From contig NZ_AWFF01000032.1 of the NCBI RefSeq assembly GCF_000682755.1, forward strand, positions 1 through 64,000: a DNA stretch of 64,000 nt. The letters are read 5' to 3'. The notes beneath the pieces are model-generated. The model saw only the letters and a list, made by a program, of their open reading frames with translations, ran no database searches and was not told where the DNA came from. Of this stretch, positions 25,700 through 38,602 are shown piece by piece; within the stretch, counting starts at the first letter, position 1; the number at the start of each line of letters is the position of its first letter. Both the position numbers and the translations under genes were made by a program. The DNA comes from Hyphomonas beringensis. Lineage in GTDB: Bacteria > Pseudomonadota > Alphaproteobacteria > Caulobacterales > Hyphomonadaceae.

Positions 25700-28147
25700 A
25701 TGAAACGTTACTATCTCTCCGCGACGGCGATCGCGGCAATCGGCATTTCCAGCCAAATATCTGCATACGCACAAACTGCACCAGCAGATGACTCCCGCCG
25801 CCTGGAAGTTGTCACTGTGACAACACAGAAGCAGGAACAGTCCCTCATCGATGTGCCGATCAACGTGTCGGTCACCAGCCAGGACCTGATCGACAAACTG
25901 GCCGCCGATGACCTCGAAGATCTAGGCAATTTCATCCCGGGCCTGTCTGTTCAGGCGCAAAGCCTCAACGCGCCCAGCTATTCCCTCCGCGGTGTGGTGT
26001 CCGATAGCGGCACCCCGCGCGTCGCCATGTTCCAGAACGGCGTAGCCATCGGTAATCCGGGCTTCGCCTCGAACCTCGCCATCTATGACATGGAACGCGT
26101 CGAGGTCGTCAAAGGCCCGCAGGCCACCCTGTTCGGCCAAGGCGCGCTCGTCGGCGGCATCAACTTCATCCAGAACCACGCATCCCTGAATGGCAATTCC
26201 GGATCCGTGACGCTGGAAGGCGGCGATTACAGCTTCCTGCGCGGCGAAGGCCACTATAATTATGTCGTCAGCGACACTCTTGCGGTTCGCGTTGCTGCCC
26301 AGATCAAGAATATGGATGGGTATGTTCCGAACACGGCCAACTCACCGGACCTGATGGGCCAGGACACGACAGCCCTGCGCACCGCCATCCGCTGGGCCCC
26401 GACGCCGAAACTGACTGCTGACCTCTATGTGAATTATCAGGAAGATGATTCCACCGGCACGCAGTTCACCTCCGGCTTCTTCCCGGTCAATGGCAAGGTT
26501 GACCCGTATGGCGCCACCGCCATGAACGTCAATGATGACCAGGTTCGCGGCAAACTCGGCAATGATCGTGAGCTTTTCTATGTCACCTCGAACATCGAAT
26601 ATGATCTGAACGATGCCTGGTCCCTCACCTCTCTGACAGACTATCGCAATCTGTTCTCGAACGAAGCCTGGGACTCTGACGGCGTAGCCCTCAACCTGCT
26701 TCAATTCTATCAGGCCCGTCAGGCCAACACGTTCAGCCAGGAACTGCGCCTCAACTATGATGCCGGTGGCAAGCTGACCGCCTTCTTCGGCGGCAACTAT
26801 TTTACAATCGAGGGCAAAGACGTCCTGCGCTTCTCGACAGACGAAGCCTACGCCCAGTCCCTGTTCGCACCACGCCTCGTCAGCGCTGTTGCCCCGGCCG
26901 GCACAACCGTAGATCAGTTCGGCGCCTATCTGGCATCCCAGGGCCTGCCCGGCGGGCAAAATCTCGGCAGCTTCGATACGCCTCTGCAATACTCCATGCT
27001 GGCCTTCCTTACGGGCGGCGGCGCCCTTGCTCCACTCTATGACGAACATCTTGAGGAACAGGTTGCCACCTATGGCCGTGACACCTACGACCTCTTCGGC
27101 GATGTGACCTATGCCCTGACGGACCGCCTCGAACTGACCGCAGGTCTGCGCTACACCAAGGAAGAATTGTCGGCGAGCACCATTGCCCACGTCCTTAAAT
27201 CCAACCCATATCTGGGTGGTCGCAACGGCGTGACCCTGGCCCCGACCGTCGTTTTCAGCAGTGCAACGGTGGACAATCTCGCCTCGGGCTCTGCGGACAC
27301 AGATGGTGCCTTCACCTGGCGTCTGAACGCATCCTACCGCGTCTCTGATGACATCAACACCTGGATCGCTTATGGCCGCGGCCGTCGTCCGGAAGTTCTG
27401 TCCGCCTCCGGAGCGACCTATGATGTCATCGATGCCGAGACGCTGGACAATGTGGAAGTCGGCATGTTTGGCCGCTTCTTCGATGAGCGCCTCCAGATGA
27501 CCAGCTCCATCTATTATGGCGAGTACAACGACTTCCAGACAACGAAGTTTGACCCGCTTCAGGGTATCTTCATTACGGAGAATTCCGGTACCGCCACCCA
27601 GTATGGCTTTGAGTTTGACGGTCAGGCGCTGGTGTCTGACAATGTCCGTCTGCTGGCGACCTATGCCTATACACACTCCAAATATGATGATGAAGATGCT
27701 GACGGCAATCCGCTTCAGTTTGCCGGTAACAGCTTCCGCATCAGCCCGGAGCACAGCTTCTCTGTGGCCGCAGACATCACCATCCCGGCGGGTGAATACG
27801 GCCAGTTCTCCATCGTCCCGACCTATATCTGGAAAGACGACCACTTCTTCGAAGACGACAATGGCTTTGACTATGTCGCCGATGGCAATGGTGGCTTCAC
27901 CCGGGTTCGCGAGACATATCCGGATGGCACACCAGTCGACGAGTTCCAGGATGCCTATGGCATTGCCAATCTCCGCGTAGGCTTTGACAGTGCCAGCGAG
28001 CGTTGGGGCGCCTATGTACTCGGTGAGAACATCTTCGATGAGGAATACCTGATCGACGTGGGTAATACCGGCGGCGCCTTTGGTCTGCACACGATCATCC
28101 GCGGCAAGCCGCAAATGCTGAAAGCGGGCGTCTACTTCAAGTTCTGA
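25700..28147 (+). CDS. TonB-dependent outer-membrane receptor
   Basis: An 815-residue gated outer-membrane transporter. It has a signal peptide (cleavage near AYAQT-AP), then a TonB-box-like EVVTVTTQKQEQSLIDVPINVSV, a plug domain with DLGNFIPGLSVQ and MERVEVVKGPQATLFGQGALVGGINFI, and a beta-barrel that ends in the classical aromatic residue (KAGVYFKF). It resembles the large proteobacterial receptor group annotated as siderophore or carbohydrate receptors; the substrate is not readable from sequence. The next gene, after a strong hairpin terminator, is a glycerophosphodiester phosphodiesterase lipoprotein, which hints at a phosphodiester ligand. Confidence 0.93.
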   Translation: MKRYYLSATAIAAIGISSQISAYAQTAPADDSRRLEVVTVTTQKQEQSLIDVPINVSVTSQDLIDKLAADDLEDLGNFIPGLSVQAQSLNAPSYSLRGVVSDSGTPRVAMFQNGVAIGNPGFASNLAIYDMERVEVVKGPQATLFGQGALVGGINFIQNHASLNGNSGSVTLEGGDYSFLRGEGHYNYVVSDTLAVRVAAQIKNMDGYVPNTANSPDLMGQDTTALRTAIRWAPTPKLTADLYVNYQEDDSTGTQFTSGFFPVNGKVDPYGATAMNVNDDQVRGKLGNDRELFYVTSNIEYDLNDAWSLTSLTDYRNLFSNEAWDSDGVALNLLQFYQARQANTFSQELRLNYDAGGKLTAFFGGNYFTIEGKDVLRFSTDEAYAQSLFAPRLVSAVAPAGTTVDQFGAYLASQGLPGGQNLGSFDTPLQYSMLAFLTGGGALAPLYDEHLEEQVATYGRDTYDLFGDVTYALTDRLELTAGLRYTKEELSASTIAHVLKSNPYLGGRNGVTLAPTVVFSSATVDNLASGSADTDGAFTWRLNASYRVSDDINTWIAYGRGRRPEVLSASGATYDVIDAETLDNVEVGMFGRFFDERLQMTSSIYYGEYNDFQTTKFDPLQGIFITENSGTATQYGFEFDGQALVSDNVRLLATYAYTHSKYDDEDADGNPLQFAGNSFRISPEHSFSVAADITIPAGEYGQFSIVPTYIWKDDHFFEDDNGFDYVADGNGGFTRVRETYPDGTPVDEFQDAYGIANLRVGFDSASERWGAYVLGENIFDEEYLIDVGNTGGAFGLHTIIRGKPQMLKAGVYFKF

Positions 28148-28159
28148 TCCCCCTGACCT

Positions 28160-28193
28160 GGCCGGAGCAAATTGATTGCTCCGGCCTTTTTCT
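28160..28193 (+). terminator. Rho-independent terminator after the TonB receptor
   Basis: GGCCGGAGCAA pairs perfectly over 11 bp with TTGCTCCGGCC across the loop ATTGA, followed by TTTTTCTTT. It lies between the receptor stop and the phosphodiesterase start (28214), so the downstream gene is expressed through read-through or its own weak promoter. Confidence 0.9.
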
Positions 28194-28213
28194 TTCAAAG
28201 ACAGGCACACACC

Positions 28214-29278
28214 ATGAAATACCTTATCGCTGCCGCTCCTGCCGTATTGCTCGCGGCCTGCAGCCAGGCAGAAGAAGCCAAGACAGCCCCTGCTGTCGAA
28301 ACTTCACAGGTTGAAACATCCACTCCGGAAGCAGTGGAAGAAACCGTAACCTTCAAGACGCTGACCGGTGAAGCTCCGATCATCATCGCCCATCGCGGCG
28401 CAAGCGGCCTCTACCCGGAACACACGATCAAGGCATATGAAACGGCCATCGAACAAGGCGCAGACTTCATTGAGCCGGACCTCGTCATGAGCTCCGATGG
28501 CGTTCTCTTCGCCAATCATGATGGCTATCTGTCCGACACGACGGACGTCGCCGATCACCCGGAATTTGCAGACCGCAAGAAAGTCCGCCAGACACCTTTT
28601 GGCGACCGCGAGGATTGGTGGTCTGATGATTTCACCTGGGAAGAACTGAAGACCCTGAAAGCGCGCCAGCGCGTCGAGGGCCGTGCCCAGGAATATAATG
28701 ACCAGTTCGATCTCGTCTCGTTTGACGAAATCCTGGATCTGGTCATGGATCAGGCCAAGAAAGGCCATAAGGTCGGTCTGCACATTGAGGCCAAATGGCC
28801 CAGCCACTTCTCCGCCGTCGGCATGGACATGGTTGCCCCCATTCTGGATGCCATGGACGCCAAGGGCCTGAAGGCTGCCGGTATTCCGGTCTATATCCAG
28901 TGCTTTGAACCGCAATTCCTGGCCGATGTTGCCGAGAAAAGCGACATTCCGCTGATCCAGAATCTGATCGGCCCGCCCTATGACAAGATGCTGGGCATGG
29001 AAATCAGCCTGGATGACGTCACCACGGCGGGCGTTGGCGCGAACAAGACCATGATCCTGAATGAAGACGGCACGACCACTGACTATATTGATCGTGCCCA
29101 TGACAAGGGCGTTCTGGTCCACGTCTTCACTGTGCGGGATGATGAGCCCGCCCCCGGTTTTGCAGACTCCCGCGCAGAACTGCGCGCCCTGCTCGACGCT
29201 GGCGCTGATGGCATCTGGACAGACTATCCCGGCACCGCCGTGGAAGTTCTGGAAGACTACGAAACATCAGATCAATAG
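28214..29278 (+). CDS. Glycerophosphodiester phosphodiesterase, periplasmic lipoprotein (GlpQ-like)
   Basis: Hydrolyses glycerophosphodiesters to glycerol-3-phosphate and an alcohol. 354 residues from ATG 28214; an upstream non-ATG extension was rejected because the lipoprotein signal AAAPAVLLAACSQ starts here. The TIM-barrel catalytic motif is IIAHRGASGLYPEHTIKAYE with GADFIEPDLVMSSDGVLFANHD (His, Arg, Glu, Asp and second His all present). KVGLHIEAKWP, FEPQFLADVAE and DGIWTDYPG complete the family. Lipidation and a long polar linker place it in the periplasm or at the outer membrane. A bidirectional terminator follows. Confidence 0.93.
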   Translation: MKYLIAAAPAVLLAACSQAEEAKTAPAVETSQVETSTPEAVEETVTFKTLTGEAPIIIAHRGASGLYPEHTIKAYETAIEQGADFIEPDLVMSSDGVLFANHDGYLSDTTDVADHPEFADRKKVRQTPFGDREDWWSDDFTWEELKTLKARQRVEGRAQEYNDQFDLVSFDEILDLVMDQAKKGHKVGLHIEAKWPSHFSAVGMDMVAPILDAMDAKGLKAAGIPVYIQCFEPQFLADVAEKSDIPLIQNLIGPPYDKMLGMEISLDDVTTAGVGANKTMILNEDGTTTDYIDRAHDKGVLVHVFTVRDDEPAPGFADSRAELRALLDAGADGIWTDYPGTAVEVLEDYETSDQ

Positions 29279-29392: not shown

Positions 29393-30928
29393 TCACAGAT
29401 CTTTCGTGGTGACATCCAGATCCGTCGTCACCGGAGAATCTGCACGCCCGGAATCTTCCACAACCCGGAACTCCCCGCGGCAGGTGTCGCCAGTAAAGCT
29501 AGCGCGCAGATAGCCACGCTTCTTGCCATTCAGATAAGACACATGCGGATTGGCATCGCGTACAATTTCCATATCGCGTGCCCATGGGCAGAAAGAGGCA
29601 ATCGAGCTGCCCACCAGTTCATGGCCAATCCGGCGAGATGAGGGATCGAACTGGTTTTCTCGCAGCGTTGACGCCATCGCCGTATGCCAATCGCCTGTAA
29701 GGAAGACTGGATTGGACACATCATGACGGGCCAGCACGGACGACAGGCGATCCCGCGCGGCCGGATAACCATCCCAGCTGTCCATATTCGTCACCGGCTC
29801 TTCCGGCGCCTCGGTATAGCGGTAGGATGTAAACCAGATCTGCGTCGCGATCACATTGAAATTCGCCTCGGACCGCTTCAGCTCGCGCGTTAGCCAGGCC
29901 TCCTGCTCATGCCCCAGCATGGTGCGGTTCGGGTCAAGCGCGTCTTCGCAATAGGGCTTGCGACCATCACCACACGCCTGGTCGGAGCGGAATTGGCGGG
30001 TATCCAGCAAATGCACCTGAGCCGGGCCAAAACGGTATTTATTGTAGAGCTGCAAAGCCGGCTTCATATTCTTCAGCACTGGCGGCTGCTCTATTGGCAT
30101 ATGCTCATAATAGGCCTTGAAAGCGGCGTACTTCCGAACCTGGAATTCCAGCGGCGTCTGTTTCTCCGGGTCCTGAGGAATGTCAGCCGCCCAATTATTG
30201 TCCACTTCATGATCATCCATCGCAACGATCCATGGCGCAGCGGCATGGGCCGCCTGCAAGTGCGGATCAGACCGATAGAGCGCATAGCGATTGCGATAGT
30301 CCCACAGCGATGTGATCTCGCCGCTATTATGCTGGCGCACGATCTCGAAAAGACGGCGCTCGCCACCGCCAACATCCATCATGCGCGCCCCCAGCGGGCT
30401 GATCCCACCCTCATAGATATAGTCACCGACATGAACCACACAGTCCGGAGACCAGTCAGCCATGTCGCGATAGGCCGCATAATTACCCGTTTCATAATGC
30501 TGGCATGAGGCAAGCGCGATCTTCGCAGACGCATCTGCCGGATTGGAAGTGCGGGTCCGCCCGACAGGGCTCTCCTCATCGCCAAAATAGAACTGGTAGA
30601 AATACTCGCGGCCTGGCTGCAACCCCTTCACCTTGACGTGTACGGAGTGCGCCTTGTCACCTGATGTTTCTACAACACCATCCTGCAGCGTCTTGCGCAT
30701 GGCGGCGTCACTGCAGACCCGATATCGTACCTGGGCGATGCCTTCTGGCATACCGCCGCCCTTCAGCGGCTCCGGCGCCAAACGTGTCCAGAGAATAACG
30801 CTATCGGGATGGGGAGACCCTGAGGCCACACCCAGCGTGAAGTGCGGTTTGGTGCTTTGGGCGAGGGCCAGCTTGGGCACCCAGAGGGCAGCACCTGATG
30901 AAGCAAGAAACAGACGACGGGAAAACAT
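29393..30928 (-). CDS. phoD: PhoD-like alkaline phosphatase/phosphodiesterase, Tat-exported
   Basis: A 511-residue metallophosphoesterase releasing phosphate from phosphoesters and diesters outside the cytoplasm. The start MFSRRLFLASSGAALWVPKLALAQ carries the twin-arginine signal SRRLFL, as in PhoD enzymes that fold with Fe/Ca before export; a longer frame in front has no export signal. An N-terminal PhoD domain (TLGVASGSPHPDSVILWTRLAP) is followed by the catalytic metal motifs ALASCQHYETGNYAAYRDMAD, VVHVGDYIYEG, MDDHEVDNNWA and LTGDWHTAM. It lies downstream of a TonB receptor on the same strand, with two strong hairpins between. Confidence 0.93.
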   Translation of the reverse strand: MFSRRLFLASSGAALWVPKLALAQSTKPHFTLGVASGSPHPDSVILWTRLAPEPLKGGGMPEGIAQVRYRVCSDAAMRKTLQDGVVETSGDKAHSVHVKVKGLQPGREYFYQFYFGDEESPVGRTRTSNPADASAKIALASCQHYETGNYAAYRDMADWSPDCVVHVGDYIYEGGISPLGARMMDVGGGERRLFEIVRQHNSGEITSLWDYRNRYALYRSDPHLQAAHAAAPWIVAMDDHEVDNNWAADIPQDPEKQTPLEFQVRKYAAFKAYYEHMPIEQPPVLKNMKPALQLYNKYRFGPAQVHLLDTRQFRSDQACGDGRKPYCEDALDPNRTMLGHEQEAWLTRELKRSEANFNVIATQIWFTSYRYTEAPEEPVTNMDSWDGYPAARDRLSSVLARHDVSNPVFLTGDWHTAMASTLRENQFDPSSRRIGHELVGSSIASFCPWARDMEIVRDANPHVSYLNGKKRGYLRASFTGDTCRGEFRVVEDSGRADSPVTTDLDVTTKDL

Positions 30929-31052: not shown

Positions 31053-33797
31053 TTAGAAGGAGTACTCGTACTGGATCCAGAACGAGCGCGGCTTACCGTT
31101 CCAGCCATACTGGCGATAATAGGCCGCATCGTTTGGCCCGATCTCGCCTCGAACAGCCGCCCGATCGCGCGTATAGCTTGATCCGCCTGAGGCTCGTTCA
31201 AAATAATCTTCACCCAGAAGGTTCACCCCACGGATCAGGAAGCGGTGCTGTTTCTCATCTCCCAGGAAGTACTGAACAGACCCGTTGAGTACGAAATAGT
31301 TACCGAAGTTCAGACGCTCAAAGACGCGCTCGCCCTGCGGATTGACCAGTCGGGCCACAGACGTGCCGGAATTTGCAAACTCGTCGCCCTGCCAACGCGG
31401 GTTGAGGGAGAAGACCCAGCGATCTGTCGGCTTGTAGGTAATCAGACCGGACAGCGTCCAGTCAGGGCGCTCGGAGGACTGGATCTTGCGGTCACTGCCG
31501 CGAACACCGGGAATGATATAGCCATCCGGTGACAACAGCGCGGCAGACGCTCCTCTGGCGGTCAGCGTGCCTAGCTCTGCGGCCGTATAGTTTCCGTCCA
31601 GCGTGATGGCTGTGCCCTCAAGCCGGGCGAACTGGCCAAAGGTCGCGTTCTCCTCAAGGGATTCCATCTTGGTGAAGGAGAAGTCAGCCGCCCATTTGTC
31701 GAGGTCGAAGGCCACATCGATGGTGAAGCCCTGGATTTCCTGGGTGTTCAGCGCGTTGACGGAAACCCCCTGGCTGGCGTCAAGATTGTTTGAGGCCGCA
31801 TAGGAACAGAAACTGTCCGGCGGGATGATCGATTTACGATTGTTCTGGATCGCAGATGTATCATTATCCAGATCCGGATAGAGCGGATTTGCAACATCGT
31901 TTGCATACTGCAGACAGACTTGGCCAATGCTGCGGGACGAGAAGAGATTTTCAATGTCGGTATCGAAGTAACCAATCTCGATATTGTAGGTACCGCCGAA
32001 GATATCCCCGTCGATCCCCGCACCAACATTGAGGGCATCAACCTTTTGTGGCTCAAGCCCTGGATTGATGTTGGTGGTAGGACCAAAGGCACCAATTTCA
32101 TCAATCTTGGGCAGGCTGTAGGATGTCCCACCTGATCCACGCGCATAGAGTCCGTAGCCGAGATTCTGACGCATGCCGACTTTCCAGACTGACTGGTCAT
32201 CGAATTTGTCATTGAAATCCTGGCGGGCGGCGAAAGATCCGCTGAAACCATCCAGAACAGGCAGGCTCAGGCGCAGGTCACCATAGATGCCCGTGCTGCT
32301 GAGGGTCACATCACGGACACCGAAATCATCGTCGGAATTATCGCGGTAGCTCGTATTCTGAACCCCGGCGACCACTTCCACCATGTCGTTGATCGTATAT
32401 GTCGCGCGGGCGTTGAGGCCGAAATCGGTGTAACCGGACTCTCTTTGGTCAACCGTTCCGAAGCCTTTGGTCGGGCCACCATCCCCGAAGCTGGCCGTTG
32501 ACTGGATGACATAGCCAATCGGGTTGCCAATCGGGAACGGGTTGTCGAATGTTCCAAAGGGCTGGCCATAATACGGGCTGTCCGGATCATTGTTCAGCCA
32601 GAACGACCGGTCGATTCCGTCCGGCGTGTTTGCCTTATCGTCATACGCGCCACCCGCGCCGCCATAAGGGTTTGTGACACAGCCAGCGGCAAGGCCCGGA
32701 ATGTCTGCGGCAAATGCCTCGAACTGCGAAGCCGTACTGAAGCTGGTGATACCCTGATCGGCCGCGAGGGCCTGAATGTCTTGCGGCAAATCCTGAACGC
32801 GCGGAATCTGACAGATGCGGGCGTCGATCTCATTGTTTTTCAGTTGCGGGTTCTGGTAATGCCCTTCGACTTCCAGCTTCAGCTTGTCATTGAAGCGGTG
32901 CTCGAAAGCGGCATTATAGATCGGGAATTCCGTGAAGTTCGGCTGGAAGACTGTCGACTGCGGGAAGGAGTCGCGAAAATCGATCGTGGAATAGGAGGCG
33001 CCCAGACGCAGGTCTGTTTCGGGGGCAATCTGCCAGAGATATTTAAAGCCCAAACTGTTATAACTGTAAGGGAACTCGTGGCGGCCACCCAGGGCCAGCA
33101 CATTGTCGCCATAGGCATCTTCGGAAAACAGCTCGTGCGCGTCCGTCTCATAGGAGCGGCCATAGACCAGGAAAGAGTGCTTGCCTTCCTTGTCGAGCGG
33201 CACGGATATGTTGCCGTAGATTTCGCGTGTTTTGAAAGCGCCGGCATAGACCCCGAACTGGCCGTTTAGCGTTCCATCCGGCTCCTTTGTCTTCACACTG
33301 ACGACACCCAAGCCGCCATTGGACCCGAAATACAGGCTGTTGCCACCACGATAAACTTCAACAGAGCTGATCATACGCGGATCAATCGCTGTGGCCGGCC
33401 AGAGGTCCTCCAAAGGTGAGGACCGGTCAAAATATGGTACGCCATCCACCAGCAACAGCGTGTCACGGTCTGTGCCGCCATCGATGCGGATCGTGAATTC
33501 GCCTTCGTCAGGAGAATAACCGATATTGGCGCCGCGGATCAGGCCGGAAGCCAGTTCACCGAAATTGGTGAAGCCGCCTGTTGCAATCTCCTCATCTGTG
33601 ATCAGCTGCACCTGGGTGCCGTATTCAGCGAAATCTATCGCCAGGTCGCTGACCGACGCATCCACTGTCTGCCCCTCAACGCGAATTGTCTCAAGGCGCT
33701 TTGTGTCTTCCCCACCGGCGTCCGGCTCCGCCAAGGCAGCGGGAATGGCAGCTGTCGCCAGAAGGGCGCTCAAGCTGAACTTCAACATTCTGTTCAT
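31053..33797 (-). CDS. TonB-dependent outer-membrane receptor
   Basis: A 914-residue receptor whose start MNRMLKFSLSALLATAAIPAALAEP (signal peptide) is preceded by GGAG at proper spacing; a longer frame adds 26 residues without a signal. The plug domain includes FTNFGELASGLIRGANIGYSPDEGEFTIRIDGG, TLLLVDGVPYFDRSSPLEDLWP and ISSVEVYRGGNSLYFGSNGGLGVVSVKTK; the barrel ends WIQYEYSF. It is in a leftward unit with the PhoD-like phosphatase and diverges from the HAD phosphatase gene. The shared 211-base upstream region holds a TTGAG-N5-CTCAA palindrome. A phosphate-containing ligand is inferred from context only. Confidence 0.92.
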   Translation of the reverse strand: MNRMLKFSLSALLATAAIPAALAEPDAGGEDTKRLETIRVEGQTVDASVSDLAIDFAEYGTQVQLITDEEIATGGFTNFGELASGLIRGANIGYSPDEGEFTIRIDGGTDRDTLLLVDGVPYFDRSSPLEDLWPATAIDPRMISSVEVYRGGNSLYFGSNGGLGVVSVKTKEPDGTLNGQFGVYAGAFKTREIYGNISVPLDKEGKHSFLVYGRSYETDAHELFSEDAYGDNVLALGGRHEFPYSYNSLGFKYLWQIAPETDLRLGASYSTIDFRDSFPQSTVFQPNFTEFPIYNAAFEHRFNDKLKLEVEGHYQNPQLKNNEIDARICQIPRVQDLPQDIQALAADQGITSFSTASQFEAFAADIPGLAAGCVTNPYGGAGGAYDDKANTPDGIDRSFWLNNDPDSPYYGQPFGTFDNPFPIGNPIGYVIQSTASFGDGGPTKGFGTVDQRESGYTDFGLNARATYTINDMVEVVAGVQNTSYRDNSDDDFGVRDVTLSSTGIYGDLRLSLPVLDGFSGSFAARQDFNDKFDDQSVWKVGMRQNLGYGLYARGSGGTSYSLPKIDEIGAFGPTTNINPGLEPQKVDALNVGAGIDGDIFGGTYNIEIGYFDTDIENLFSSRSIGQVCLQYANDVANPLYPDLDNDTSAIQNNRKSIIPPDSFCSYAASNNLDASQGVSVNALNTQEIQGFTIDVAFDLDKWAADFSFTKMESLEENATFGQFARLEGTAITLDGNYTAAELGTLTARGASAALLSPDGYIIPGVRGSDRKIQSSERPDWTLSGLITYKPTDRWVFSLNPRWQGDEFANSGTSVARLVNPQGERVFERLNFGNYFVLNGSVQYFLGDEKQHRFLIRGVNLLGEDYFERASGGSSYTRDRAAVRGEIGPNDAAYYRQYGWNGKPRSFWIQYEYSF

Positions 33798-33963
33798 TGG
33801 AAATCTCCGTATAACCCCATCACCCACCGGCCATCGGCGGGCCGCGGCAAGGCACAGGAAATGCTGCATTGCCACACCGCCGCTCTAGAGGCCGAACGCA
33901 ACACTTCGATGAAGATTAAGCAAAACTTAGATGAACTGTATTTACTTCAAATGCGATTTATAA

Positions 33964-33978
33964 TTGAGGAATACTCAA
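33964..33978. promoter_or_regulatory. Putative RpiR operator upstream of the HAD phosphatase
   Basis: TTGAG-GAATA-CTCAA is a perfect inverted repeat 30 bases before the HAD gene and in the region shared with the divergent TonB receptor. It directly follows a TATAAT hexamer (33959-33964), so a bound repressor would cover the start site. Two overlapping variants of the same motif lie between rpiR and phnD at 35707-35731. A second small repeat, TAAG-CAAAA-CTTA, is at 33917-33929. Confidence 0.6.
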
Positions 33979-34008
33979 CATAGGGATTGATGATAGCTGG
34001 AGTTGAAA

Positions 34009-34779
34009 ATGGCCCATGGCTTAGCCCCCTCCGGGGCACATGATGTTGCCGCGATTGCGCGGACCACACGCGGATACCTCATGGACTGGGATGGATGCTG
34101 CGCTATCGAGAATACAGTGTCGCCTGCTGCGGCACGCTTTCTGAAGGCCAATCAGGACTGTGTTGCAATCGTCTCGAACAATTCCACACAGACCCCTCAG
34201 GACTTTCTGAACATTCTCTCTGCTGCCGGAATTGATATACAGGCGGAGCAGATCATTCTGGCCGGTATGGAAGCCATAGATGCGGCCCGCAAATATACTG
34301 ACAGCCAGGTCATGGTGATGGGAGACCCGCACATGCGGGGCATCGCCCGGAATGCCGGCTTGCAGCTGACGCAGGAAGAGGCAGACGTGATCGTCCTGTT
34401 GCGTGACACGCGCTTCACCTATCGCCGTCTGGAGCGGGCCGTGAACAGTTTGCGACAGGGGGCCAGACTGATCGTGGCCAATCCGGATCTCACGCATCCC
34501 GGCAAGAATGGCCGCATCAAACCGGAGACGGGCGCCCTGCTGGCCGCCCTGAAGGCTTGTATCGATCCGGCGTCAACCGACATTGAGATCATCGGCAAAC
34601 CGGGCCCGCATCTTTTTCTTAAGGGATGCAAGGCATTGGGCCTGTCACCCGCACAAGTGGTGATGCTGGGTGATAATCCGGCAACGGACCTGGCAGGCGC
34701 CAAAGCGCTCGGCATGAAGGCCATATTGACCTCTACTGACACGCCGGAAATCTTTGAAACCCTGCTGGGTCTACGCTAA
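34009..34779 (+). CDS. HAD-superfamily IIA phosphatase (NagD/AraL-like)
   Basis: A 256-residue cytosolic phosphatase. HAD motifs in order: LMDWDG with Asp26 and Asp28 (nucleophile and acid), VSNNST (motif II), Lys in GKPGPHLF (motif III) and MLGDNPATDLAGAKALG (motif IV). The cap inserted between motifs II and III is the IIA type, seen in enzymes acting on small sugar or glycerol phosphates (NagD, AraL, phosphoglycolate phosphatase). The start ATG has a GGAG 7 bases upstream; a TTG two codons earlier was rejected. It is convergent with rpiR (3-base gap) and preceded by the palindrome shared with the rpiR-phnD promoter, so it probably dephosphorylates what the adjacent ABC system imports. Confidence 0.88.
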   Translation: MAHGLAPSGAHDVAAIARTTRGYLMDWDGCCAIENTVSPAAARFLKANQDCVAIVSNNSTQTPQDFLNILSAAGIDIQAEQIILAGMEAIDAARKYTDSQVMVMGDPHMRGIARNAGLQLTQEEADVIVLLRDTRFTYRRLERAVNSLRQGARLIVANPDLTHPGKNGRIKPETGALLAALKACIDPASTDIEIIGKPGPHLFLKGCKALGLSPAQVVMLGDNPATDLAGAKALGMKAILTSTDTPEIFETLLGLR

Positions 34780-34782
34780 AGT

Positions 34783-35685
34783 CTAGAACCGCTTCAGGGA
34801 CAAAACATCGAATGTTTTCTTGAGAGTATCGGTCGCCCGGTCATAGTCCGCCAGCGCCAGTGCGGCGATCAGCGCGTCCAGCACACATAGCTGTGCAATA
34901 CGGCTGGTCATGGCTTCGGTGCGGAACTTTGTTTCGCGTGCCATGGTGAAGAGTTTCACATCCGCATAGGCCTGCAGGGGGCTGCTGGAAAAATTGGTCA
35001 CGATGATCGTTTTCGCCCCGGCATCCTTGGCAAGTCTTGTCGCAGCAAGTGTTTCATGTGTCGCACCAGAGTGCGAAATGGTCAGCACAGCAACGTCCGG
35101 TCCGGTTCGCGAGGCGCTGATCGCCTGCACATGGCTGTCCACCACAACCCGCGCATCCAGGCCAATGCGAAGCATGCGATACTGCGCGTCTTCGGCGATC
35201 GGGGCAGACGATCCGATGCCATAAATCTCAACCCGCTTGGCCTGGCGGATGATGTCGACGGCGGCGGCCACGGCATCGGCATCCAGAATCGAGAGCGTAT
35301 CCTTCAGGGCCTGAATGCCGGCATGGAATGTCTTGCGGCAAACTGTGGCTGTATCATCCTTGGGCTGCAAATCCTCATGGATGAACTGAACCGGCTGGAC
35401 AACTTCCTGAGCCAGGCTCAATTTCAATTGCTGAAAGCCTGACAGGTCCAGCTGCCGGCACAGATTGATAACACTACCATCGCTGGCGCCGGTCGCTTCG
35501 GCCAGTTCGGTGACAGACATGCCGACCACCTGCCGGGGATTATCCAATATGTAGTCCGCAATGGACCGCGTGCTGGGCCCGAGGGAATCATGACGCACAC
35601 GAATGCGGGTCATGACATTGTCCACAATGGGCACATCACTGCGCCGACGCGCCGGAGATTTCCGTTTGCTCTTACTCTCAGTCAT
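34783..35685 (-). CDS. RpiR/MurR-family regulator with SIS domain
   Basis: A 300-residue phosphosugar-type regulator. The N-terminal HTH_6 domain runs through RIRVRHDSLGPSTRSIADYILDNPRQVVGMSVTELAEATGASDGSVINLCRQLDLSGFQQLKLSLA. The C-terminal SIS domain has VEIYGIGSSAPIAEDAQYRMLRIG and LTISHSGATHETLAATRLAKDAGAKTIIVTN, the fold that binds phosphorylated sugars or polyols. The start MTESKSKRK has a GAGGG site upstream; 12 extra residues of the open frame were rejected. It diverges from the phnD-like gene with overlapping palindromes between, and its likely effector is a phosphorylated compound handled by this island. Confidence 0.92.
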   Translation of the reverse strand: MTESKSKRKSPARRRSDVPIVDNVMTRIRVRHDSLGPSTRSIADYILDNPRQVVGMSVTELAEATGASDGSVINLCRQLDLSGFQQLKLSLAQEVVQPVQFIHEDLQPKDDTATVCRKTFHAGIQALKDTLSILDADAVAAAVDIIRQAKRVEIYGIGSSAPIAEDAQYRMLRIGLDARVVVDSHVQAISASRTGPDVAVLTISHSGATHETLAATRLAKDAGAKTIIVTNFSSSPLQAYADVKLFTMARETKFRTEAMTSRIAQLCVLDALIAALALADYDRATDTLKKTFDVLSLKRF

Positions 35686-35706
35686 GCCGCCCTCTGTATA
35701 GATATA

Positions 35707-35731
35707 TTGAGTTATATTCAAATTATCTCAA
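35707..35731. promoter_or_regulatory. Composite RpiR operator between rpiR and phnD-like gene
   Basis: Two 15-base sites of the TTGAG-N5-YTNAA type overlap: TTGAG-TTATA-TTCAA at 35707-35721 and, on the other strand, TTGAG-ATAAT-TTGAA at 35717-35731. Together they make a 25-base palindrome ending TTGAG/CTCAA. The position between divergent genes suits control of both regulator and importer. Confidence 0.6.
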
Positions 35732-35841
35732 CGGTATATGAATTCCGTAACACCAATGTCACAAGCAGGTGTTATTCGCTGACCCAGTGATATCGCGGCG
35801 CACAAAAGGCGTCCGGACGATTTGCCAACAGGGGAACACGC

Positions 35842-36774
35842 ATGCGAATTCTCTCATTTCTCATCATGGTCACCCTGTCCCTCATGCCCGTTTCGGTGGC
35901 CGCGGCGCAGGCCATTGGCAGCGCCGAAAAGCCATTACGGGTGATGCTGATCCCGGCGGATGGCGGCACCGAAGACGGCACCAAGGCAGACTTCCTGCCC
36001 CTGTTCAATGCCATCACGCGGTCCAGCGGCCTGCATTTCGAGGTCAAGACGGGCCAGAGCTATTCCTCTGTCATTGAAGGCATGTGCGCGGGCCTGGCAG
36101 ACATCGCCTGGTTCGGGCCGGCCTCCTATATCGAGGCGCGCGACCGGAACTGTGCGCAGCTTCTCGCAGTGGAAGAGCGCGATGGCAGCTCCACCTATTA
36201 TGCCGGCCTGTTTGTCGGCGCCAATTCGGATGTGGACTCATTAGACGACATGAAGGGCGCCTCTCTGGCGCTCGGCTCCAGCCATTCGGCCAGCAGTTTT
36301 GCCTATCCGCTGGCCATGCTCGTCAATGCCGGGATTGATCCGCTTAAGGATCTCTCGGCCATCCGCATTACCGGCAGTCACACAAACAGCCTGCTGGCCC
36401 TGCGCAATGATCTGGTCGATGCGGCGGGTGCCTCCTTCATCTCCTTTGAGCGCGCCGTCAATCAGGGCGATCTCAACGCTGCCGATTTCCGCCTTGTGGC
36501 CAAATCAGACCCGATCCCCAATCCGCCCATCGCCATGCGGCCGGGCCTGCCGGATAACATCAAGACCAGTCTGAAAGTGGCCATGTCCACCGTGCATGAA
36601 GACCCGAATGTCCGGCCGGAATCCATTCGCGGCTATGGCGGCAAGCAAGTTGACCGTTACAATACGACTGCGCCTGAAGCCCTGTTCGACAAGGTCGTCA
36701 GCACGACCGCCTTCCTGACAGATGACTATCAGGCCGCCATCCTCAGAAAGGCTGACGACTCTCAGCGCTTCTAG
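35842..36774 (+). CDS. phnD: PhnD-like periplasmic binding protein of an ABC importer
   Basis: A 310-residue phosphate/phosphite/phosphonate-type binding protein. Signal peptide MRILSFLIMVTLSLMPVSVAAAQA. The PhnD-type fold shows in LRVMLIPADGGTED at the N-terminus, FEVKTGQSYSSVIEGMCAGLADIAWFGPASYIEA, DMKGASLALGSSHSASSFAYPLAML and the later block SFERAVNQGDL. The conserved Ser/Thr cluster that holds the phosphonate group is present as SSHSASS. It is the first gene of an ABC operon with AGGGGAA as ribosome site. Whether the ligand is a phosphonate, phosphite or a phosphate ester cannot be read from sequence; the SIS regulator and phosphatases nearby favour an ester. Confidence 0.88.
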   Translation: MRILSFLIMVTLSLMPVSVAAAQAIGSAEKPLRVMLIPADGGTEDGTKADFLPLFNAITRSSGLHFEVKTGQSYSSVIEGMCAGLADIAWFGPASYIEARDRNCAQLLAVEERDGSSTYYAGLFVGANSDVDSLDDMKGASLALGSSHSASSFAYPLAMLVNAGIDPLKDLSAIRITGSHTNSLLALRNDLVDAAGASFISFERAVNQGDLNAADFRLVAKSDPIPNPPIAMRPGLPDNIKTSLKVAMSTVHEDPNVRPESIRGYGGKQVDRYNTTAPEALFDKVVSTTAFLTDDYQAAILRKADDSQRF

Positions 36775-36798: not shown

Positions 36799-37587
36799 AT
36801 GACTGATCGCCTTCCCCCCGCCCCTGCCAGCCCGGCCCTTGAGCTGACGGCCCTGACCAAATCCTATCGCAATGGGCCAACGGCGCTGGATGATATATCG
36901 CTGAAAATCGAGCAAGGCAGCTTTTGTGTCGTGCTCGGATCATCGGGCTCCGGCAAGTCCACCCTGTTGAAATGCATCACCGGTCTCGTGACGCCCTGCC
37001 GCGGAGAGATCCGCGTAAAGGGCCGCCCGATGACGCGCCGCAATCTGCGCACCATCGGCATGGTCCATCAGGATTTCGGCCTGTCCGAGCGGCTGACGTC
37101 CGCTCAGAATGTCATGGCGGGCGCAGCGGCCATAACGCCCTTGTGGCGCATCCTGCTGCAGGCCTATCCCCTGCCCGTTCAGCGCAAGGCCTGCCAGCTG
37201 CTGGCCCGTGTCGGCCTGACAGAGGCCCATGCCAATCGCCGCGTCAAGGCGCTGTCCGGCGGGCAGAAGCAGCGCGTCGGCATTGCCCGCGCCCTGATCA
37301 CTGACCCCAGCCTGATCCTGGCCGACGAACCCGTGGCCAGCCTGGACCCGCGCACCTCCGCCGAGATCATGCAGCTGCTGAAAGATGCCGCGCGGGAGCG
37401 GGGCGCCGCAGTCTTGTGCTCTCTGCACCAGATTGATCTGGCGCGCGCCTATGCCGACCGGATCATCGGCCTTCAGGGCGGCCACATCATCTTTGATGGC
37501 CCGCCGGCTCAGCTGGACCGCGCGGCCCTCAGCGCGATTTTCAAGGCGGAGGACTCCGGCCCTCATCTGAAATTCGCGGTGGCCTGA
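36799..37587 (+). CDS. phnC: PhnC-like ABC importer ATPase
   Basis: A 262-residue nucleotide-binding subunit. Walker A is GSSGSGKST (47-55), the Q-loop region [13 protein letters not shown], the signature LSGGQKQR, Walker B LILADEP and the H-loop SLHQIDLA. The sequence [35 protein letters not shown] is typical of PhnC. It sits between the binding protein (24-base gap) and the permease (1-base gap), so the importer is complete. Confidence 0.93.
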
Positions 37588-37588
37588 G

Positions 37589-38602
37589 ATGACTGATATG
37601 CCCGCCTCCTCCGCCGCGCAGGCATGGAAACTGAAACAGCCCTATGGCTGGCGCACGCTTCTTGTTCTGGCGGCCTTGTTTGTCTTCTCGGCCATCTCTG
37701 CCGAGCGGATGCAATTCGACCGTATGCTGAGCCAGATAGGAGATTTTGCCCTGGCTAGCGTCGGCCTGAAGCAGGAATCCCAGATCGGCAAGGGCATGGG
37801 CCGCGTGGTTCAGGACATGTTTCCCATTGCCATTGCCGAACGCCGTCCGGTTGAGCTGATCGAGCCATTCGACGAAGCGAAGCTGCCGCTCTTTTCCCAT
37901 ATCGAAACCGTGAGCGTCGAACAGTCCAGCCTGAACCCCGAGACGCTGCAGATGGATACGGTGAGCCTTGAGAAGGCCTATCTGGTCGAACCGGTCGGGT
38001 ATCTTGTCTATGTGCTGGGAAAGATGGTCGAGACCATCGAGATCGCAGCCTGGGCCAGCCTGGTCGCCATTCTGTTCAGCCTGCCGCTGGCCTGGCTGTG
38101 CGCAGGAAATTACTCCCCTCATCCGCTGGTCTACGGTGCGGCGCGGTCTTTGGTCTCTTTCTTTCGGGCCATTCCGGAATTGATCAGTGCCCTGTTTCTG
38201 GTTCTGGCATTCGGCTTTGGCCCGGTTGCCGGCATTCTGGCGCTGACCTTCCACAGTATCGGCTTCCTGGCCAAATTCTATGCCGAGGATATTGAGGGCG
38301 CCGAGACAGCCCCACAGCAGGCCCTGAAGGCGGCGGGCGCCAGTAATTTCACCATATTGCGGCTGGCCGTTCTGCCGCAGGTTCTGCCCAGCTATACGGG
38401 CCTCTCTTTCTATATTCTTGATCGCAACATTCGCATGGCGACCGTGATTGGACTGGTCGGCGCGGGCGGGATTGGCCAGGAGCTGAAAGGCCGCTTTGAC
38501 ATGTTCCAGTATGACCGCGTTGGCACGATCCTGCTGGTGATCTTCCTGACGGTCATGGCCCTGGATCTGATCTCCGCGCGCTTCCGCCGGGACATTGTAT
38601 GA
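37589..38602 (+). CDS. phnE: PhnE-like ABC importer permease
   Basis: A 337-residue inner-membrane permease, longer than the usual 260-280 because of an N-terminal periplasmic stretch of about 100 residues after the first helix (RMQFDRMLSQIGDFAL ... IETVSVEQSSLNPETLQMD). The permease core has ETIEIAAWASLVAILFSLPLAWL, FRAIPELISALFLVLAFGFGPVAGILALTFHSIGFLAKFYAEDIE, and the EAA-type loop KAAGASNFTILRLAVLPQVLPSY, then RNIRMATVIGLVGAGGIGQEL, all typical of PhnE. It ends the importer operon; a small imperfect hairpin follows without a T-run. Confidence 0.93.
   Translation: MTDMPASSAAQAWKLKQPYGWRTLLVLAALFVFSAISAERMQFDRMLSQIGDFALASVGLKQESQIGKGMGRVVQDMFPIAIAERRPVELIEPFDEAKLPLFSHIETVSVEQSSLNPETLQMDTVSLEKAYLVEPVGYLVYVLGKMVETIEIAAWASLVAILFSLPLAWLCAGNYSPHPLVYGAARSLVSFFRAIPELISALFLVLAFGFGPVAGILALTFHSIGFLAKFYAEDIEGAETAPQQALKAAGASNFTILRLAVLPQVLPSYTGLSFYILDRNIRMATVIGLVGAGGIGQELKGRFDMFQYDRVGTILLVIFLTVMALDLISARFRRDIV

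Follow-up and report, generated by a model that had tools for sequence, protein, structure and literature searches.

A conserved palindrome as the putative operator of an RpiR-family regulator beside phnDCE-like genes, with half-sites that may be shared with PhoB boxes in relatives

Does a palindrome that recurs around an rpiR gene of Hyphomonas beringensis serve as the operator of the encoded regulator and, if it does, which genes are under its control? The locus lies in a 64,000-nucleotide stretch of DNA, referred to here as the window. The first-pass annotation had reported palindromes of the type TTGAG-N5-CTCAA at 33964-33978 and 35707-35731, and all three sequences were found exactly there, in the following setting:

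29393-30928, minus strand, PhoD-type phosphatase, downstream of the TonB receptor (Pfam PhoD, PhoD_N)
31053-33797, minus strand, TonB-dependent receptor (Pfam Plug; its ortholog adjoins HAD in 32 of 33 fetched clusters)
33964-33978, unstranded, putative operator A1, TTGAG-GAATA-CTCAA (TTGAG-N5-CTCAA), ending 30 bp before the HAD start codon
34009-34779, plus strand, HAD-IIA phosphatase (Pfam Hydrolase_6, Hydrolase_like)
34783-35685, minus strand, RpiR-family regulator, HTH_6 and SIS domains (Pfam and alignment)
35707-35721, unstranded, putative operator B, TTGAG-TTATA-TTCAA, in the rpiR/phnD gap and ending 21 bp short of the rpiR ATG
35717-35731, unstranded, weaker overlapping copy TTCAA-ATTAT-CTCAA (reverse complement TTGAG-ATAAT-TTGAA), the middle half-site being common with B
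35842-36774, plus strand, PhnD-like binding protein (Pfam Phosphonate-bd; TIGR01098 above cut-off)
36799-37587, plus strand, PhnC-like ATPase (TIGR02315 254.2 bits, below the 266.1 cut-off)
37589-38602, plus strand, PhnE-like permease (TIGR01097 256.3 bits, above the 216.7 cut-off)

The regulator has the architecture of the RpiR/MurR family, an N-terminal HTH_6 domain (PF01418, 66.1 bits) and a C-terminal SIS domain (PF01380, 71.5 bits), both above cut-off, and its SIS loop S-H-S-G-x-T-H-E-T is kept in the RpiR alignment. The HAD-IIA phosphatase keeps DWDG, SNNS, K and GDN..TD in its alignment, which we take to be the catalytic motifs. The PhnD-like protein scored 167.2 bits against the PhnD equivalog cut-off of 261.1. 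A second TonB receptor (TBDR2) and a glycerophosphodiester phosphodiesterase (GDPD) adjoin PhoD at 25700-29278 of the window; among the fetched loci, the GDPD was found only in L057.

With up to two mismatches, the literal motif matches the window 23 times, against 23.95 in shuffles, which is chance level. In the 3.8 Mb genome, perfect TTGAGN5CTCAA occurs at four places, the window's copy included, and with up to one mismatch (right arm YTCAA) there are 139 forward matches against 75 for a reversed control pattern. Literal counts, which are not clearly beyond chance, were set aside as evidence, and we rest the case on conservation of the sites. The other perfect copies were rejected: C32:133887 and C46:30284 fit the profile described below poorly (scores 8.7 and -3.5), and C76:10851 scores below the four best of its locus. 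A one-mismatch copy, CTGAGCCAGGCTCAA at 35407-35421, lies inside the rpiR frame, fits poorly (2.6) and coincides with a predicted small terminator-like hairpin. In 33780-35900, scanning for the sigma-70 consensus yielded two promoter-like sites against 1.7 expected, neither of them at the operators.

PhnD orthologs were found in 34 of 105 family genomes, the window's included, and the RpiR ortholog in the same 34. We fetched the other 33 clusters and aligned 33 sequences (32 relatives plus the window), leaving out L055 (genome G033) because its rpiR is outside the fetched stretch. The order receptor/HAD/RpiR/PhnD is preserved in 32 of the 33 fetched clusters, L055 being the exception, with rpiR about 10 kb from phnD. 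PhnC and PhnE come next in 31 of the 32 order-keeping clusters (the L056 cluster runs to the end of its contig). PhoD is downstream of the receptor in 23 of the 32; for the remaining nine, the fetched stretches gave no PhoD.

In the receptor/HAD gap (region A), T33965, G33966, A33967, T33975, C33976 and A33977 show no variation in any of the 33 sequences, and the columns from A1 to the HAD ribosome-binding stretch drift. From the HAD-side sites of the 33 clusters, the window's own included, we built a 19-bp symmetric profile. In the 64-kb window it scores 22.4 at A1 and 23.0 at B, and the next-best place reaches 11.5. For B, which is scored here with a profile made from region A only, 500 shuffles gave a maximum of 11.1. 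Across the rpiR/phnD gaps (region B), the real score is reached by 17 of 16,500 shuffled sequences; for 26 of the 33 loci, all 500 shuffles stay below it. The gap holds a best profile match in all 33 aligned family sequences (L055 left out), two of which, L080 and L081, are weak. The first-pass annotation had made its proposal depend on conservation of the motif at orthologous clusters, and both sites are indeed kept at both promoters in the 32 relatives.

Operator B and its overlapping copy (35707-35731) form three half-sites spaced 10 bp. The TCA half-site of the 35717-35731 copy recurs in many aligned relatives and is absent from L052, L054 and L079. In L056, L081 and L082, the right arm of site A reads CTCAG or CTCAT and the RpiR helix-turn-helix has SEGSI for SDGSV, changes that hint at co-variation.

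For searches on a wider scale, we used a model of 40 sites (AT-rich spacer), with both window sites in its training set. At E<=10 it matched the 3.8 Mb genome only at the A1 and B places, among the 150 of 446 first-look candidates that were scored. At E<=2 it matched in 28 of 42 genomes of the genus; in most genomes the scoring covered a part of the candidates, and many had their A and B sites in the training set. These matches follow the regulator: 26 of 27 RpiR-bearing genomes have one (G057 is without), against 2 of 15 RpiR-lacking genomes. A lone unlinked match at G065:C8:200207, beside a LysR-like frame (judged by eye from its translation), was taken as chance; further lone matches occur in G038 and G064.

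Searching named genomes with the RpiR alignment, we obtained 63 loci, spanning Hyphomonas, Henriciella, Ponticaulis, Woodsholea, Caulobacter, Asticcacaulis and sphingomonads as well as Cupriavidus, Pigmentiphaga, Paraburkholderia, Methylibium and others, that is, alpha- and betaproteobacteria. We analysed 39 of them (L142, L144-L176, L178-L182), none of which was in training, and left out 24 that repeat the family set. At a threshold score of 9 or more there are 91 sites in 38 of the 39 held-out loci (L169 has none), whereas 200 column-permuted profiles averaged 2.7 sites and never exceeded 15 sites or 12 loci; the loci are related, and so these counts are not independent events. From conservation, spacing, co-occurrence and the set of accompanying genes, we judge that TTGAR-N5-YTCAA is very probably the operator of the adjacent RpiR regulator; this degree of confidence is for the assignment of the regulon, and binding by RpiR itself is inferred.

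To see which genes the sites accompany, we combined 83 loci: the 33 family stretches, the 39 outside loci, 10 phospholipase C (PLC) stretches and positions 20001-45000 of the window. The start of a cluster gene lies within 450 bp for 165 of the 173 sites scoring 9 or more. Sites stand at the gene start of HAD in 61 of the 62 loci with the gene, of the TonB receptor in 57 of 58, of rpiR in 55 of 72 (17 lack a site at their own start), of phnD in 41 of 60 and of PLC in 18 of 33. PhoD (0 of 35) and PhnC (0 of 63) have none in this count, and two sites fell to PhnE. TBDR2 and GDPD, with a site at 0 of 11 and 0 of 2 loci, were rejected as regulon members. A site between divergent genes was counted for both, so the counts show position and are not proof of control.

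A phnD that lies apart from rpiR can carry a site: L055 retains one (17.4), as do L170 and L171, and the scores in L159 (8.7) and L163 (8.0) are below the cut-off. Good matches also occur at L055:6009 (G033; score 16.2, no assigned cluster gene within 450 bp) and, without an assigned gene start, at L151:3312 (inside the HAD match) and L154:1702. The first-pass annotation had one regulator controlling the HAD phosphatase, the ABC importer and possibly the TonB receptor/PhoD pair. The sites at HAD, receptor, rpiR and phnD agree with this; PhoD has no site of its own and would therefore be reached only by read-through from the TonB receptor.

In 25 of 73 loci, a second operator is separated from the first by 32 or 33 bp, which is close to three turns of the helix; spacings of 28, 48, 54 and 110-112 bp recur in 5, 7, 7 and 7 loci. 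On the basis of this 32-33 bp spacing and of column conservation, we propose a second copy in region A:

33931-33945, unstranded, proposed operator A2, degenerate second copy TGAA-N5-TTTA, 33 bp from A1

Columns 33932, 33934, 33935 and 33944 are invariant in 33 of 33 sequences and 33933 is G in 28. The profile itself did not choose A2 in the window and preferred 33936-33950 (score 8.8, 28 bp from A1).

Unlinked PLC genes appear to be a further target in relatives, one that the regulon as first proposed did not include. Among proteins scanned from loci outside the family, 8 of 10 are phospholipases C near rpiR. The cut-off of TIGR03396 (phosphocholine-specific PLC, 580.25 bits) is exceeded by 5 of 6 scanned proteins; the sixth, L178:3757-5544, is a second PF04185 phosphoesterase near rpiR and lies below the cut-offs of both TIGR03396 and TIGR03397. 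In L144 and L161, PLC directly follows phnE and has no site of its own. A PF05506 gene, by which we assigned PLC (67-72% identity to the L159 PLC), is present in 10 genomes of the genus. All ten are cluster bearers, and their PLC gene is either on a different contig or separated from the cluster by more than 300 kb. Of these unlinked genes, nine have a site, 100-129 bp before the PLC match and scoring 10.5-20.7. The only one without, L206 (G059:C97), is the least similar to the query (67%) and is possibly a separate acquisition. As a control, nine PLC genes were taken from another genus, in eight genomes that showed neither PhnD nor this RpiR, and gave no site (best upstream score -1.5); this is mostly a different group of PLC, eight of the nine being 44-46% identical to the query and L207 73%, and four further PLC-bearing genomes of that genus lie outside the control set. 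A PF05506 gene was not found in the window's genome, so the PLC branch is absent there.

The sites also bear a relation to a second type of element. In 37 of the 173 sites, the operator's YTCA is followed at exactly 11 bp by the start of the GTCA in a TGTCAY, against 0.15 expected per offset. As its right half stands exactly 11 bp before TGTCAY, the operator would be nested in a PhoB-box-like repeat. Of the nested sites, 16 stand before the receptor, 15 before PLC and 4 before phnD, and 2 have no assigned gene. At position 16 after the start of TGTCAY, 35 of 37 have T, and at position 17, 32 of 37 have A, as for a -10 element. None of the 37 lies in the window or the 33 family stretches; those of Hyphomonas are at PLC genes. 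Among other TGTCAY offsets, 41 bp occurs in 20 loci, mostly at the family B site and including the window's, and 33, 43 and 44 bp recur in 5, 4 and 5 loci. A gene with a PhoU domain is present in the window's genome, and the window itself has two candidate elements of this kind:

35746-35777, plus strand, candidate PhoB-box-like direct repeat CGTAACACCAATGTCAC (35746-35762) and -10-like TTATTC (35772-35777) of phnDCE
33883-33935, minus strand, candidate PhoB-box-like 11-bp repeats and -10-like CTAGAG (33888-33883), toward the TonB receptor (from column conservation and -10 spacing)

In CGTAACACCAATGTCAC, GTAA (35747) and GTCA (35758) are 11 bp apart, TTATTC stands at the -10 spacing of the nested sites, and the GTCA is kept in place in 18 of 21 aligned sequences. 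On the receptor side, where the geometry is imperfect, TTCA (33935-33932), TTCA (33913-33910) and GTTG (33902-33899) are in 11-bp register, there is no TGTCA, and the right half of the proposed A2 is 22 bp from the second TTCA. A generic PHO-box pattern, which may not be the host's own, is mismatched at 4 of 12 positions at phnD and 5 of 12 on the receptor side and singled out neither. Since about 15 bp separate the end of operator B from the phnD box downstream of it, and since the receptor box lacks TGTCA, occlusion of PhoB would be a better fit for relatives and for PLC promoters than for the window. Overlap of operators with PhoB-box-like repeats in relatives looks like an addition to the picture that the first-pass annotation had drawn.

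Our best reading is that RpiR would gate the scavenging of phospholipid head groups, as presumed substrates, together with PhoB. In the window's genome, RpiR would control rpiR itself and HAD and, by position, also phnDCE and the unit formed by TonB receptor and PhoD; the phosphocholine-type PLC would be an additional target in relatives. At many target promoters, an 11-bp direct repeat resembling a PhoB box adjoins the operator. Operator-bound RpiR would block RNA polymerase and, at nested promoters, PhoB too, with the right half of the operator doubling at the 37 sites of relatives as the upstream half of the PhoB-box-like repeat. A phosphorylated compound at the SIS domain would free RpiR from DNA, so that the genes would be on when phosphate is short and substrate is present. 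Release by PLC and PhoD, import by the TonB receptor and PhnDCE, and dephosphorylation by HAD would then handle phospholipid head groups. This pathway is suggested by the target set, by the match of HAD to glycerol-3-phosphate phosphatase structures, among others, and by PhnJ of C-P lyase not being found in any cluster bearer; repression is suggested by operator position. We consider repression by RpiR with exclusion of PhoB to be about evenly balanced. The broader proposal, that the Pho regulon from Hyphomonas (at PLC) to Cupriavidus incorporates a dedicated RpiR-type repressor, its half-sites shared with PhoB boxes in exact 11-bp register, is tentative and falls a little short of an even chance. 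Sharing of half-sites would make the phospholipid-scavenging genes an AND gate for phosphate shortage and a head-group phosphate signal.

The palindrome could have other origins. Chance in AT-rich intergenic DNA would account for the frequency of the literal string in the window with up to two mismatches; it would not account for a core that is identical in all 33 sequences or for 38 of 39 held-out loci against at most 12 for permuted profiles, and its probability is negligible. A PhoB site of inverted TTCA half-boxes is also very improbable as an identity for the palindrome. The half-site YTCA does look like a PhoB half-box, and an 11-bp register between it and TGTCAY does occur. However, a PHO box consists of two direct repeats of 11 nt (PMC4415409, available text), the palindrome accompanies RpiR among genomes of the genus (26 of 27 bearers, 2 of 15 non-bearers), and the nine control PLC genes, in genomes without a detected RpiR ortholog, have none.

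RpiR could also bind these sites and activate together with PhoB instead of repressing, which we regard as rather unlikely. In the window, the PhoB-like boxes at phnD and at the receptor each have an operator upstream of them, a position that an activator might take, and paired sites on one helix face suit activation and repression alike; occlusion is favored by the half-sites that the 37 sites in relatives share with a PhoB-like box and by the closeness of A1 and B to the HAD and rpiR start codons (30 and 21 bp). In addition, HexR, of the same family, is described as a repressor in its apo form (PMC5489143, available text). Use of phosphonates in place of phospholipid head groups would suit an importer whose PhnD, PhnC and PhnE are nearest to phosphonate/phosphite systems. 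It appears unlikely given that the shared targets are PLC, PhoD and the HAD-IIA phosphatase and that PhnJ, which the search for C-P cleavage covered, occurs in 4 of 105 family genomes and in no cluster bearer.

If head-group scavenging under RpiR is correct, its significance lies in several directions. RpiR regulators in the cited literature, as far as its available text goes, deal with sugar and carbon metabolism; this one would deal with phosphorus from phospholipids. The regulon would offer a function and a candidate class of ligand for a PhnDCE-like cluster that is easily mistaken for a phosphonate system. The DNA layout may couple phosphate starvation with the sensing of substrate in a register exact to the base, and the nested sites would be a case for how two regulators share one half-site. 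A literature search (supplementary files and most subscription journals lay outside its scope) gave no publication that we recognised as describing this RpiR regulon.

Several known systems invite comparison. The importer resembles the PhnDCE/PtxB-type phosphonate-phosphite importers, with PhnE above its equivalog cut-off and PhnD nearest to PtxB and PhnD structures; it differs in that PhnD and PhnC are below theirs and that no PhnJ was found in the genome. Similarly, the HAD-IIA profile matches solved chains of NagD, chronophin and glycerol-3-phosphate phosphatase, such as 4i9f, whereas the protein here is below every equivalog cut-off listed.

Among RpiR-family regulators, HexR (site TTGT-N7-8-ACAA) and RccR (TGTAGT/ACTACA; a 15-bp site, in two copies 68 bp apart at aceE) both control carbon metabolism in Pseudomonas (PMC5489143, available text). 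As probably here, where RpiR binding is inferred, RpiR-family proteins act there on short pseudo-palindromes. The operators of HexR and RccR, as given in that text, read differently from TTGAR-N5-YTCAA, whose second sites are often 32-33 bp away and which accompanies phosphorus-scavenging genes. The window's regulator scored 171.2 bits with the NCBIfam HexR model against a cut-off of 296, and its site differs as well.

An arrangement comparable to the nested and adjoining sites is found at phoPR of Bacillus subtilis, where a CcpA site lies immediately upstream of the PHO box (PMC4415409, available text), so that the site of another regulator, one for carbon, adjoins the box. The regulator there is a different one, and the available text describes no shared half-site in 11-bp register. 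Closest in gene content is Caulobacter crescentus, in which PhoB controls TonB receptors, phospholipase C and glycerophosphodiester phosphodiesterases (PMC11208175, available text). A PhoB regulon with TonB receptors and phospholipase C fits the target set described here; unlike in the Pho regulon, the site of a second, substrate-type regulator would here be nested in, or stand beside, the box-like repeat.
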